Positions 49,424 through 56,900 of a stretch of DNA of 64,000 bases are shown one piece after another; the stretch's first letter is position 1, and each line of letters starts with the position of its first letter. The position numbers and the translations under genes were made by a program. This DNA comes from Rhodococcoides corynebacterioides (GTDB lineage Bacteria; Actinomycetota; Actinomycetes; Mycobacteriales; Mycobacteriaceae). The notes under the pieces were generated by a model, which ran no database searches, had not been told where the DNA came from, and saw only the letters and a program-made list of their open reading frames with translations. The DNA lies in contig NZ_JABUBU010000003.1 in assembly GCF_019834675.1 (NCBI RefSeq), forward strand, positions 1-64,000. The letters run 5' to 3'.

Positions 49424-50476
49424 TCAGCGGGGCGACGGGTTGATCCACCCCGTGTCGCCGGGACGGCCGCTGTCCCCGGTGTCCGGGGGTGCCGGATTGG
49501 CCCACGACGACGTCTCCGACGCGTCGCCCCCGTGACGACCGCTGTGACGATCGGCGTGACCGTTGCCGGCGGAGCGGTCGGGCCCGTCGGGGCCGTCGAG
49601 ATCGCGACCGTCGTGAGTGTCGTCGGGCGTTCCGGGATCGGACCGGTCGGGATCGGGCCCTCCGGTGTCGGGATCGGGGCCGGGCGCACCGCCGCCGTGC
49701 GGTCCGGTCCCGCCGCTCGGCGCCGTCGGCGCCGACTGGACCTGCGGAGTGGCCGGCAGCGGTGCCGGGCCGGGCGCCGGAGCGCGCTGCGGTTCGGGGG
49801 CGGGTGCGTCGCCGGGCGCGCCGGGCACGCCGGGCCCGGCCGACGCGGCAGGATCCGGGGACTCCGTGGGTGGAGCGGGCGCCGGCAGCTCGGGGGGCGC
49901 CGGCAGCTCGGTGCCGGTCGACCAGGACTGCTCGGCCGCCGGGTCGACGGGCGTATCGACGGCCGGGGGTGCAGGCGCCTCGGTGACGGCCGGGTCGGGC
50001 ACCGGCGCTGCGGGCGGTGGCGGCGGGGTCAGGCCCGGCACGGCGAACGGCAGAGTCGGGAGAGGTGGCAGCGGCAGAACCCACGGCGCGGGCGCCCCCG
50101 GGTCCGCTTCCGCGTCGGCCGCGACGGCGTCGGCGAGTGCGTCCCGCTCCACCCGCGCCTCGTCCTCGCGCCGCTCCTCCTCGGCGCGATCGTCCGCGGC
50201 TCGGTCTCGTGCGATGTCCTCGCTGACCCGTTCCTGGAAGGTCATGTGCGAGCGCCGCTCGTCGTCCGCCTTCTGCTCCGACAGCGACATCGCGTCGCGG
50301 TCGGCCGTGGACGGATCCTCCTCGTCGGAGGACGACGGGGCGGCCACGGCCGAGCTCGGTGCCGCGACCGCCGTGGCCAGCACGCCGCCGGTCACCAGTC
50401 CGGCGGCGGCGAGCACCGGCATCACGCCTCGGGTCAGTCGCGGCCATCGGGCTCCGCGCAGCGACGTCATGGTCAT
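49424..50476 (-). CDS. Secreted proline-rich protein, function unknown
   Basis: 350 residues. N-terminal signal-like stretch (about residues 17-45, V-L-A-A-A-G-L-V-T-G-G-V-L-A-T-A-V-A-A-P), then a highly charged Arg/Asp/Glu region (about 50-120) with coiled-coil character, then a long Pro/Ala/Gly/Asp-rich low-complexity region to the C-terminus. Start ATG 50476 overlaps the upstream stop (ATGA); ATG 50470 has a better-spaced AGGAAG. Looks like a cell-wall-spanning spacer. Composition is unlike all neighbours. Confidence 0.7.
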   Translation of the reverse strand: MTMTSLRGARWPRLTRGVMPVLAAAGLVTGGVLATAVAAPSSAVAAPSSSDEEDPSTADRDAMSLSEQKADDERRSHMTFQERVSEDIARDRAADDRAEEERREDEARVERDALADAVAADAEADPGAPAPWVLPLPPLPTLPFAVPGLTPPPPPAAPVPDPAVTEAPAPPAVDTPVDPAAEQSWSTGTELPAPPELPAPAPPTESPDPAASAGPGVPGAPGDAPAPEPQRAPAPGPAPLPATPQVQSAPTAPSGGTGPHGGGAPGPDPDTGGPDPDRSDPGTPDDTHDGRDLDGPDGPDRSAGNGHADRHSGRHGGDASETSSWANPAPPDTGDSGRPGDTGWINPSPR

Positions 50477-51972
50477 CTTCCTGTCTCCCCGGTGGTGTCG
50501 GTGGTCGCGGAACACGGTGCGCTGCACTCGATCTTGCGGACGATCGTGTACCCGTCGGCGCCGCGGCGGACGGTGAACTGCTGGTCGTAGTCGAACCGTC
50601 GACCGTCCGGCGTGGTGAGGGTGAGCAGGGCGTCGTAGACGTCCGGCGTCACGGTCGGGCGCAGGTCGAGCCGGTGGGTGGTGCCGCGTTCCACGGCGTC
50701 GATGGACGCCTCGAGGTCGGCGACCATGCTCGCCCGGTCGACCCCCGCGGGCAGCTCCCACAACGCCGCGGCGGCCGCGGCGTCCCGGTCGCGGTAGTAG
50801 AGGTCGTCGAAGCGGGCGATGACTCCCGGACCGTCGAGCGACTCGACACCCGACGTCGCGCTCGCCGCATCCGTCCGGGCCGAGACGGGCGGCCCGTCCC
50901 CGCGTGCCGTGGATACCGCGACGGCGGCACCGAGGCCCACCACCAGGGCGACGATGGCCGCCGCGGCCGTGACCCCGACCGGTCGGCGCCGATGCTCGTC
51001 GCGGCCGACCCGTCGCCGGTCGCCGGTCGACCGCGCCCGCAGGGTGGCCGTGGTGTCCTCGAAGGACGTGGCGGGGTCCACCGGCGCGTCGGTCCCGGCA
51101 GTCGGTCGCGGTCGCAGTATCACGGACGCGGCGCGGGACCACTCGGCGGCGACGTCGTCCGAGCGCTCGGCGGTGTCGTCGGCCGAGCGCTCGGCGGTGT
51201 CGTCAGTCGTGGCACCACGGCCGACGTCGAGGACGGTGCCGATGCCGGCTTCGCCGAGACGGCGACGCACGTCGGTGGAGCGGTCGGCCGACCCCGTGGG
51301 CCGGATCACCGTGATCCGCCGGGCGGCGACGACGGCCGTCAGCGCGATCGCACGGGACACCGCGTCCTCGTCGAGGACCGGAACCACCACCGCATCCGCG
51401 TCGTCCGCGAGGACACCGAACCACGGCTCGTCCGGGCACGCCCGGACGACCACGGTCTGGCGAATCGCGGACAGCGTCGCGGCCGCCGCCGCGACGTCGG
51501 CGCTGGTGAGCGGGCGCGCCGCCCGCCCCGCCACCACCTCGTCGACACCCGAGCGTCGGGGGCGGAGGACCTCGCGCGAGGGCGCGACCACAGCGGAGCC
51601 GTCCGGAGCCACCACGGCGAAGCCATCCGAACCCAGCGCGAGAGTGGCAGACACGTCGTCGGCGGGATGCCAGAGAACGACACTGCCCGGCCGGTGCCGC
51701 GCGATCGCGTCCGCGAGGCCGACCGCGACGCGGCACGCCGCGTCGGGGTCGGCGACGCTGCGCGCCGCGTCGGAGGCGTGGGCGCGGCACGCCGCGTCGG
51801 GGGCGTGGCCCGGGTCGACGATCACCACGCGCTGACGCAGTGGCAGCGGTCCTGCGAGCACGCGCTCGACGCCGCGGTCGGCGCGATCGCCGCGGGCACT
51901 GCGCGTCGAGGCGCCGTCACCGCGCCCGCTGCGACCCGCGGAACCGAGCCCCGCGACCACCGACGACCTCAT
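50473..51972 (-). CDS. Single-pass membrane protein with extracytoplasmic domain, unknown
   Basis: 499 residues from ATG 51972. About 340 residues of soluble N-terminal domain (V-V-I-V-D-P-G-H-A-P, V-V-L-W-H-P, I-T-V-I-R-P-T-G patterns), one TM helix (about 360-385, A-A-A-I-V-A-L-V-V-G-L-G-A-A-V-A-V), then an outside domain of about 110 residues that looks NTF2-like (R-F-D-D-L-Y-Y-R-D-R-D-A-A) and ends with two cysteines. Contains a 24-bp duplicated D-D-T-A-E-R-S-A segment. Translationally coupled to the secreted proline-rich gene. Confidence 0.65.
   Translation of the reverse strand: MRSSVVAGLGSAGRSGRGDGASTRSARGDRADRGVERVLAGPLPLRQRVVIVDPGHAPDAACRAHASDAARSVADPDAACRVAVGLADAIARHRPGSVVLWHPADDVSATLALGSDGFAVVAPDGSAVVAPSREVLRPRRSGVDEVVAGRAARPLTSADVAAAAATLSAIRQTVVVRACPDEPWFGVLADDADAVVVPVLDEDAVSRAIALTAVVAARRITVIRPTGSADRSTDVRRRLGEAGIGTVLDVGRGATTDDTAERSADDTAERSDDVAAEWSRAASVILRPRPTAGTDAPVDPATSFEDTTATLRARSTGDRRRVGRDEHRRRPVGVTAAAAIVALVVGLGAAVAVSTARGDGPPVSARTDAASATSGVESLDGPGVIARFDDLYYRDRDAAAAAALWELPAGVDRASMVADLEASIDAVERGTTHRLDLRPTVTPDVYDALLTLTTPDGRRFDYDQQFTVRRGADGYTIVRKIECSAPCSATTDTTGETGR
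51160..51204 (-). repeat. 24-bp-period duplication in the membrane protein gene
   Basis: CGAGCGCTCGGCGGTGTCGT plus C occurs at 51160-51180 and 51184-51204 (plus-strand reading). Encodes a duplicated Asp-Asp-Thr-Ala-Glu-Arg-Ser unit just before the membrane helix. Confidence 0.75.
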
Positions 51973-52033: not shown

Positions 52034-52039
52034 AATATA
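52034..52039 (-). promoter_or_regulatory. Candidate -10 box for the membrane/secreted protein pair
   Basis: Minus-strand TATATT, about 62 bases upstream of the start at 51972, in an otherwise very GC-rich stretch. No clear -35 box. Confidence 0.4.
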
Positions 52040-53967: not shown

Positions 53968-56900
53968 CCCACCCCTCCCGCCACGAGATCCGACAGGTCC
54001 GTCACCAGAGCGGGCGAGGGCTGCCAGGCGAACACGCCCCGACCCGGTGGGGTGCGGGGCCCGGCCATCCCCCGGACGAAGTGGTACTGCACTCCGCCCA
54101 GATGCACCTCGGGCCGGTATCCGGGCAGCCGCCAGCGCAGGAACCGATGCAGCGCCACCGAATACAGCAGCGCCTGGAGCGGATAGTGCGCCGCGATCAT
54201 CTCTCCCGCCATGGCATCGGTGGTGAAGTGATCGACGGTGAGGTCGCCCGCCACGATGCGATTGGTCTTGTAGTCGACGACGACGAACCGCGGCTCGCCT
54301 CCGCCCTGTCCCCCACGCACCCGGATCACGGAATCGATACTGCCGGTGAGGTACCCGCGCAACTCGCGGTCGTCCAGGCGACGGAGTCGAGTCGAGTACG
54401 CGCCCAGGACGTCGTGGGTCGGCACGTGACGGTCCAGCAATTCGGCGATGTCGTGGACCGAGGCACAGCGGCGTCCCGCCCGGTCCCCGCCGGCGAGCGG
54501 AAGCTCGAAGTCGAGCTCCGACAGCCTGTCCGCGGGGGCGACGTCGGCCAGCGTCCCGAAGCCGAGCGGAGTCCGGAGCACCGCGCCGAGCGCGTGGGCG
54601 AGATGGGCCGGATCGAGGTCGGCCCCGTACCGCGTCACCGCGTCCCGACAGCGAGCGTCGAGCTCGGCATCGAGGTCGGGTGCGGCGGTGTCGACGAACT
54701 CGAGGACGTCGTGCACCAACGTGCCGAACGCCGCGCCCGCCGGCAATCCGTTCATCGGCGACGCCAGGGCGGCCTCGGCCGGGGCCACGCGCTCGCCGCC
54801 GGCGACGAGCACGCTCTCCGGCTCGTCGACGACGCCGGGAACCTCCGACTCGTCGACCGCGTCCTCGGCGTCCGCGCCGTGATCGTCGTGCGCGCCGGCG
54901 GTCAGTGCCGTGTACGAGGTGCGATGCCAGGCGTGATCGAGTCGGCGGTCGAACACCGCGGCAGCGAGGGGCGCGGGGCTACCCGCGGCGCCCCGTCGAG
55001 TCAGGCGTGCACCCGTCGGAGCGCCCACGGCCTCGACGGTCGTGCTGTCACCGGCCCGCGCGACGAGAGCCGACAGCGCGGCCTCGTCCGCCGGCAGCCG
55101 AATCGACCGCTCCGGAGCCGGCACCCCGTCGACCCGACCGAACAGCAGACGATGCAGCGGGCCGTTCTTGGTGGTGTACGAGGGCGCCCACCACACCACG
55201 ACCTGGCTGCGGGCGCGGGTGAGCGCGACGTACAGAAGGCGGAGTTCCTCCCCCGCCGCCTCGTCGTCGTGCAGCACACGCCGCGCGGCGTATCCCCGGG
55301 CGGTGGGGCCGCCGACGTCGAGGATGCGGCGGCCGTCCTCGTGATACAGCAGGGTCGGCTGATCGAATCCCCCGCTCGCGGCCCACGCGAACGGCACGAA
55401 GACCACGGGGTACTCGAGGCCCTTCGCCGAGTGCACCGTGGCCACCTGCACCGCATCGGCGTCGCTGTCGAGGCGGCGACTGCGGTCCGACGCCGACCCG
55501 AGCGACGGGTCGGCCACCCGATCGGCCAACCACCGGCACAGCGACGCGACACCGTGTCCGGCTTCCTGGAACTCGCGGTCGAGCAGCTGAGCGACGTGGG
55601 TCAGATCGGTGGCGTCGCGCTCACCGCGATCGCGGGCCAGCAGGCGGGCCTGCAGGTCGGTCGCGCCCGTGAGCACCTCGACCATGGCCGCGAAGCCGAC
55701 CCGCTCGACCACCCCGGCCAACTCACGGAAGCGGGCACTGAGCTCGGAAGTGGCGGCGTCCCCCGCCGCGTCGAGACGATCGGCCGTCCACCCCAGCAGC
55801 GGCGTCAGCGCCGCCCGGCGCACCACGTCGGCCCGGTGCGGTTGCTCCACGGCTTCGAGCACCCGGAGCCACTCCGCGGCCGCGGGCGTCGAGAACACGT
55901 CGGCCCCGCCCGTCAGCACGGACGGCACCGCCGCGTCGTCGAGCGCCGTGCGCACCAGTTCCGCCTGCACCTTCGTCCGTACCAGGACGGCCACGTCGCC
56001 CGGCCCCACGGGAGTGCCGTCGACCGCGGCGCCGCTGGTCAGCAGCGCGACGATCTGGTCCGCCACGTCCGTCGCGATGCGCTGCCGGATACGCGGCGCC
56101 GAGGGGAACCCCGACTTGTTGAGCGGCCCGCACCCGGTTCTCGGGAGCACCCGCAGACGCATCGGATCCGTCGTTCCCGCCGGTCCCGTCAGCCGACGGC
56201 TCCGGTGGGACGCCGACACACTCGTCACCACGATCTGGTCGGCACCGAGGGCGGCGCCCTCGTACAGGTGGGCGAGCGAGCGCACCACGGCCTCGTCGCT
56301 GCGCCGGTTCGTCGTCAACGCCAGGCGGTGGTCGGCCACCGCGACGGCGTCGAGGTAGCTGGTCACCTCCGCCCCGCGGAAGGCGTAGATGGCCTGCTTG
56401 GGGTCGCCCACCAGTACCAGGACTCCGCCGTGGCCGTGGAACGTACGCCGCAGGATCTCCCACTGCAGGGGGTCGGTGTCCTGGAACTCGTCGACCAACA
56501 CCACGCGGAACCGGTCGCGGATGCGCCGGCACGCCGCCGCACCGTGGTCGGGATGGGTCAGGACGTCGTGCAGCAGACCGAGGAGGTCGTCGTAGTCGCG
56601 AATGCCGGCCAGTCGCTTGCGTCGCTCCGTCTCGACGCGGACGTCCCGCGCGAACGCCACACGGTCCCCCGCCTCGGTCCCCTCCGGAACGTCCGGACCG
56701 AGCACGGCACGCCGATCGGACACCGCCGCCCGACCGACGGTCCGCGCGTCCTGCGGCGTCACCGGCGGCTCGGAGGCGAGCCTGCTGTACCGCTGCAGAT
56801 AGAGGTCGTCCACGACGTCGACGACGATGTCGTCCACGGATTCGACGAACGTCGACCCCGGCTCCGGCTCGCCGGCGATGCCGAGCCCGTCCAGCATGCG

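Follow-up and report, generated by a model that had tools for sequence, protein, structure and literature searches.

What are two coupled genes, located beside recD in Rhodococcoides corynebacterioides, and from what are they derived? The pair, here called genes A and B, lies on the minus strand of a 64,000-nucleotide stretch (assembly GCF_019834675.1, contig NZ_JABUBU010000003.1, positions 1 to 64,000; "the window" below). An earlier note had described it as a transenvelope device, possibly joining a cytosolic sensor to the wall, and had recognised no known system. The explanation favoured here, with slightly better than even confidence, is that the pair derives from the part of a Mycobacteriales plasmid conjugation (type IV secretion system, T4SS) module that spans the envelope, has been retained on the chromosome, and acts as a trans-envelope tether that is independent of nucleotide. 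Taken separately, a derivation from conjugation parts is well supported by homology. As such the pair is outside any named family, yet it is built from known conjugation parts; the earlier view that no known system can be recognised thus holds for family names, as neither protein has one in Pfam or NCBIfam, but not for ancestry, which is of MinD/ParA and NTF2-like type and lies in plasmid conjugation modules. The features concerned are:

51972..50473, minus strand: gene A, an open reading frame of 499 amino acids with an ATG start
50476..49424, minus strand: gene B, 350 amino acids, ATG start, with a signal-type segment, a charged region, a proline-rich rod and C-terminal SWANPAP and GWINPSP
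50473..50476, minus strand: stop-start overlap of A and B, ATGA (4 bases)
51067..51972, minus strand: MinD-like cytosolic domain of gene A, which no longer has the P-loop or the DTG motif (alignment, tree, hhalign)
50476..50850, minus strand: outer NTF2-like domain of gene A, the C-terminal 125 codons without the stop (AlphaFold2 model, homology)
Layout of protein A: MinD/ParA-like region without ATPase motifs (residues ~43–290), linker, transmembrane segment (335–353), NTF2-like outer domain (~376–489)

The ATGA coupling reported earlier is borne out by the four shared bases at 50473–50476. The single membrane helix proposed for A agrees with its one hydrophobic segment, residues 335–353, which follows an Arg-rich stretch and is oriented N-in by the positive-inside rule. 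An AlphaFold2 model of full-length A, made with five orthologues, has a mean predicted local distance difference test (pLDDT) score of 57, with the cytosolic and outer parts ordered; values are 69–89 over residues 151–250 and weaker before. Residues 46–290 of the model match ParF best (Z 14.4, root-mean-square deviation 3.3, 173 residues aligned), indicating a MinD/ParA alpha-beta fold, and Soj, MinD and FleN are matched in fold as well. The deviant Walker A motif of such proteins is K-G-G-x-x-G-K-T/S. It is missing from six of the seven A orthologues, and the window protein reads VDPGHAPDAAC at the P-loop. This loss, seen in the alignment for those six, is why the window A has no Pfam match at E≤1. 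The orthologue from R. trifolii keeps a P-loop (TEGGMGKT, with Glu in place of the signature lysine), scores just under the cut-off of Pfam CbiA (E 7e-5) and is 35–42% identical to plasmid MinD-like proteins among the 25 matches listed. In profile comparisons (hhalign), the gene A set aligns with the MinD-like set of conjugation modules at E 1.7e-30, and with the chromosomal MinD-like set of the genus at E 1.7e-10. Gene A rows form one group in the tree (100/98), which carries a warning of long branches meeting, so that the position of the P-loop-less clade is unsure. When the PDB was searched by sequence, a single row at chance level (E 0.3) was returned for A2 and none for the R. trifolii orthologue. 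Overall, it is well supported that A has as its cytosolic half a degenerate MinD/ParA domain whose nearest relatives are the MinD-like ATPases of plasmid conjugation modules in Mycobacteriales.

The outer half is modelled with more confidence when taken alone (pLDDT 87.1), as three helices followed by four strands in the order aaa-bbbb. It is NTF2-like, with a best Z of 12.9 and varied NTF2-like proteins as top matches. By sequence, it is 39% identical over 103 residues (E 1e-12, single comparison) to a bitopic protein of a cluster whose contig also has a TraG-type gene (L075), and 37% identical to a protein of the type found at L091, on the Rhodococcus sp. RDE2 plasmid pRDE01. Matches to the small NTF2-like bitopic family, annotated as "hypothetical", occur in 256 plasmid records, and a profile finds it in 170 of the 401 family genomes, representing 18 of the 31 genera. 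Its topology and predicted fold resemble those of VirB8. Two marks of VirB8-like proteins, a single transmembrane segment and a C-terminal NTF2-like outer domain, are present in A; a third, being encoded within a T4SS module, is absent at the window locus and present in many of the plasmid homologues. The VirB8-like OrfG domain (6zgn) stands at rank 38 in the Foldseek list for the whole A model. Neither it nor other VirB8-type chains are among the best 50 matches for the outer domain alone, which does not count as contrary evidence. Homology to both halves demonstrates that A joins in one chain relatives of two separate module proteins, a MinD-like ATPase and a single-pass NTF2-like protein.

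The two kinds of relative occur together on plasmids. On R. ruber pmega_3 (L089), and on three other plasmids (L093–L095), the order is a secreted "insoluble domain protein", the NTF2-like bitopic protein, a cutinase, an M23-type peptidoglycan hydrolase, two small proteins and the MinD-like protein, while the order differs at other modules. On pmega_3, genes for AAA_10 (VirB4-type), TraG-type and MobF proteins then follow the MinD-like gene; the TraG-D_C and AAA_10 proteins exceed the Pfam cut-offs, and MobF is a relaxase. In one report (PMC6794481), cutinase and murein hydrolase of an R. equi conjugative plasmid are proposed to aid DNA in crossing the envelope, and cutinase is described as promoting conjugation of pFiD188. 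In four of eight further modules, the NTF2-like bitopic gene overlaps a ParA-like gene by 4–8 nucleotides, and the ParA-like proteins concerned lack the lysines of Walker A, the motif reading GSGGAxxTTT or GACGGAGSTTT. Such overlaps support a functional link of the two proteins. It is therefore a recurrent arrangement that an NTF2-like bitopic protein is coupled to a ParA-like protein without these lysines, and the fusion in A is its extreme form. The loss of the lysines in A was probably a separate event, since by profile its domain is nearer to the lysine-bearing set.

Some observations on these modules stand by themselves. The ParA-like proteins at the four overlaps (L165:4293, L166:4309, L167:4294 and L168:4291) may constitute an ATPase-dead ParA partner family within conjugation modules. 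The "insoluble domain protein" (L091:6854-8152, L094:8440-9627 and similar) has a Gly/Ala-rich hydrophobic domain and is a candidate envelope pore or pilus part; Pfam gives no match for it at E≤0.01, NCBIfam none that convinces, and the literature search returned no paper on it. Genes for a nucleotide cyclase and a Pycsar effector adjoin mobF on R. ruber pmega_3 (L089:24361-25586).

Protein B has the composition reported earlier: a single N-terminal hydrophobic segment followed by AxA-type residues like those of a signal peptide, a region (residues 50–125) that is 53% charged, and a tail of 27% Pro, 13% Gly and 10% Asp. Common to its orthologues are LPxLPFxxPG, PQVxx and a motif at the C-terminus. 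In a loose form, [GS][WVIM].NP.P, the last of these occurs 12 times within the final 120 residues of six of the seven B orthologues, against a mean of 0.026 in shuffled sequences. A strict form, G[WVI][TSN].P.P, is found in five of the seven B orthologues and in six of the eight plasmid secreted proteins of a first set, compared with 3 of 262 gene-finder proteins from 21 loci. Plasmid secreted proteins have tandem motifs of similar type directly behind the signal peptide, and in seven of the eight in a second set looser Q-x-G-[VIT] repeats can be made out by eye. A search with the window domain found the outer-domain subtype nearest to that of A in seven plasmid records; five loci with this subtype were examined, three from those records (L091, L092, L097) and two from other genomes (L160, L161). 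Four of them encode a secreted protein, plus a cutinase, and this secreted neighbour contains GWSNPxP twice; at the fifth (L097) the neighbour lies beyond the fetched stretch. A DNA pattern for GW[TS]NPxP was also run over the 37 Rhodococcoides genomes, where five of the 30 loci given are gene B; because the pattern also permits GWW and other residues, most rows are noise. Ten of the 25 other loci were read in frame: six show GW[TS]NPxP (frames of up to 46 amino acids), one stops within the motif and three have none. Protein B lacks the Gly/Ala-rich hydrophobic domain that follows the N-terminal repeats of the plasmid proteins and has the Pro-rich tail. The motif does not prove that receptor and ligand make contact here, but it is a good lead for such a contact.

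Orthologues of A and B occur together in 7 of the 37 Rhodococcoides genomes, and at all seven loci, each of which was read, recD adjoins the pair. A profile of the C-terminal part of the fused gene A finds these seven at E <1e-80, the next best in the family being 9e-33; a gene B profile finds the same seven at E <1e-80, plus a weak match in one other genome (G024, 5e-4 over 36 positions). A search with a single B protein in 41 genomes returned the six pair genomes then sampled and a weak match (7e-4) in G017. The earlier note had regarded a lack of co-occurrence in other genomes as fatal to its view; A and B co-occur in seven of seven. By gene A, the nearest named relatives are R. kroppenstedtii DSM 44908 and R. 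corynebacterioides NBRC 14404. Other reading frames fill the space after recD in three congeners without the pair. A scan of one genome per species (84,980 species), made with two peptide patterns and so liable to miss relatives, gave five loci related to gene A, all labelled Rhodococcoides or Rhodococcus. The reading frames of the pair are open in all seven genomes. Ratios of nonsynonymous to synonymous substitution (dN/dS) were estimated by the Nei-Gojobori method and are rough values, as there are about 0.5 or more synonymous differences per site. For the window against its two closest relatives they are 0.33–0.38 for A and 0.34–0.37 for B; recD gives 0.09–0.11 and the DUF2079 gene downstream 0.10. 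The outer domain is the most constrained part of A (0.23–0.24). Within clades, leaving out the near-identical pair L016/L082, the range is 0.24–0.38, and 0.11–0.24 for the outer domain. The pair is under purifying selection in close comparisons, though it evolves fast. Its constant position beside recD in the seven genomes, together with the ratios against its closest relatives, means that it is not a product of chance.

How might such a pair work? In the favoured explanation, protein A would be a tether that needs no nucleotide, with a dead MinD domain that would still offer a binding surface in the cytosol. The NTF2-like domain probably binds the motif of B, and would do so by docking GW-x-NP-x-P, which lies at B's tip; the Pro-rich rod of B would span the wall. 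The idea of a transenvelope device fits the cytosolic half, the single membrane segment and the outer domain of A; the sensor role that was attached to it is supported by nothing found.

Several observations weigh against this explanation. Between 40 and 64 kb of the window, no gene was recognised as belonging to a T4SS. The nearest outer-domain subtype may itself not be part of a functioning transfer machine: in the stretches fetched for L091, L092, L097, L160 and L161, no VirB4-, TraG- or MinD-like gene was recognised. Foldseek and VIA-align place the outer domain within the broad NTF2-like superfamily, without VirB8 specificity. Protein B has no overall homology, by BLAST, to the secreted "insoluble domain protein" of pmega_3, and the B of R. 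trifolii has no match on the plasmids. The motif lies at the C-terminus in B and at the N-terminus in the plasmid secreted proteins. Its loose form is found in only two of eight of the latter, while the strict form is absent from the window B (GWINPSP, SWANPAP) and from that of R. trifolii, and occurs in three of the eight secreted proteins in the second set of modules; the motif was, moreover, chosen post hoc, when both sets had already been seen. The loci with GWSNPxP are close relatives and not independent. Finally, the dN/dS ratios of A and B are two to four times those of their neighbours, and among distant orthologues they reach 0.46–0.68 for A, at near-saturated synonymous sites, compared with 0.22–0.27 for recD.

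Among the alternatives, interference or exclusion survives best, although it is unlikely: the fused, ATPase-dead A would enter cognate conjugation machines, or the junction on the recipient side, as a non-functional subunit and block related plasmids. A dominant-negative protein would be expected to look like this, a dead subunit joined to one of the envelope. Related module proteins are found in none of the seven pair genomes and in 18 of the 30 other congeners (hypergeometric 0.005, from lists compiled by hand), and six of the seven have TraG-type proteins that are set apart by score from those beside related modules. However, the seven genomes represent few, non-independent lineages, six of them (not R. 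trifolii) being 4.0–4.8 Mb in size with similar loci, and plasmid poverty by descent explains the pattern equally well. The secreted B is also left as an unexplained extra. A wider version is a chromosomal anti-conjugation device made from conjugation parts, in which the pseudo-MinD/NTF2-like fusion and a decoy rod bearing GWxNPxP would poison the assembly or docking of related machines. It is improbable to the same degree. If true, it would imply a general receptor-ligand pair, an NTF2-like bitopic protein and a secreted protein with G-[WVI]-[TSN]-x-P-x-P, across the conjugation modules of Mycobacteriales. Separately, the window's genome encodes one TraG-type coupling protein of the other score class (G000:C39:85818-86186), and another conjugative element may exist there.

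That the pair is a decaying remnant of a conjugation module, without present function, is less probable again. The lost ATPase motifs and the faster evolution of A and B relative to their neighbours are what such decay would give, but the open frames in seven of seven genomes, the within-clade ratios (those of the outer domain included) and a conserved promoter box oppose it. About equally doubtful is an envelope sensor or receptor, whose NTF2-like domain would bind a wall ligand while the cytosolic half signals. Topology agrees with it, and the NTF2 domain of RsgI9 is matched distantly in fold; that match, however, is one of hundreds in the fold lists, no signalling domain was recognised in A by Pfam or NCBIfam, and no regulator was recognised beside gene A. 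The weakest proposal, a type VII secretion accessory like Rv3446c or EspI, draws on EspI, a Pro-rich and MinD-like ESX-1 protein, and on the distant relationship of A to the chromosomal MinD-like set, but it is very improbable, as the conjugation set is far closer by profile, the outer-domain relatives are on plasmids and in conjugation clusters, TIGR03931 (the Rv3446c family) does not match the window protein at E≤1, and no ESX gene was noticed among the neighbours, where no search aimed at ESX was made. Membership in a type VII secretion-associated family, which the earlier note had named as a result that would refute its view, is disfavoured by that NCBIfam result and by profile distance.

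The derivation from a conjugation module invites comparison with known components. The small NTF2-like plasmid protein in the pmega_3 module (L089:8094-8711) has one membrane segment and a homologous outer domain, as in A; its counterpart on pRDE01 (L091:8446-9360) has no T4SS gene recognised nearby. Such proteins often have a neighbour that is secreted and bears a motif of the type G-[WVI]-[TSN]; unlike A, they are separate genes without a MinD-like domain. Module proteins annotated as "AAA family ATPase" or "ParA family protein" (e.g. L089:13770-15284) have a MinD/ParA domain related to that of A. The plasmid conjugation set keeps both Walker A lysines, whereas the window A lacks the motif and is fused to a membrane segment and outer domain. 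VirC1 and StbB, MinD/ParA-type helpers in DNA transfer, are soluble, while A is membrane-anchored and without Walker A. The VirB8-like OrfG of ICESt3, as described in two reports (PMC8012802, PMC11753425), resembles A in its single membrane segment and outer NTF2-like aaa-bbbb domain; between OrfG and A no sequence match was found, the fold match is unspecific, and no T4SS was recognised around the window locus. The titles and abstract beginnings covered include none describing this pair or a MinD-VirB8 fusion, and the words "rhodococcus" and "mind" occur 0 times in the available part of the text of a T4SS review (PMC12857230).

To our knowledge, the way in which conjugation machines of mycolate-walled bacteria cross the wall and mycomembrane is poorly understood. 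In this context, the joining of two module proteins in one gene points to direct cooperation of a MinD-like ATPase with the NTF2-like subunit in the envelope. The short motif that B shares with plasmid secreted proteins offers a testable receptor-ligand pair for a family matching 256 plasmid records, and the ATPase-dead copy kept on the chromosome is a candidate means by which the host controls plasmid transfer.

Two further elements are located 5' of gene A:

52034..52039, minus strand: -10-like box TATATT, kept at L014–L017
52006..52022, minus strand: palindrome GCAGTC-GGGGG-GACTGC, between the promoter box and the start; candidate operator or hairpin of the 5' untranslated region

The pair had been credited with its own -10-like box, and TATATT at 52034–52039 agrees with this. 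A consensus promoter scan gave no -35/-10 pair. The box and, behind it, the palindrome are both kept at the four other orthologous loci L014–L017; L018 has merely a related AT-rich box in place of TATATT, the comparison having covered L014–L018 and not L082. The four-nucleotide overlap of A and B is likewise present at L014 and L015, with gaps of about 50 nucleotides at L016 and L017. In the latter two the palindrome shows a paired change to CGGTC/GACCG. It is possible that it acts as an operator or a leader hairpin. A single exact copy is present in the whole genome; as for a regulon, the genome has one additional site, with one mismatch.

Upstream, the strand of the pair also carries recD and recB, identified by Pfam, and recC, identified by reading. 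A convergent gene that falls in no family and the DUF2079 gene, the latter identified by Pfam, lie downstream, and ABC genes were recognised by reading among the neighbours. A tRNA-Val called by ARAGORN within the recB frame (55760–55841, minus strand) is probably a false call.

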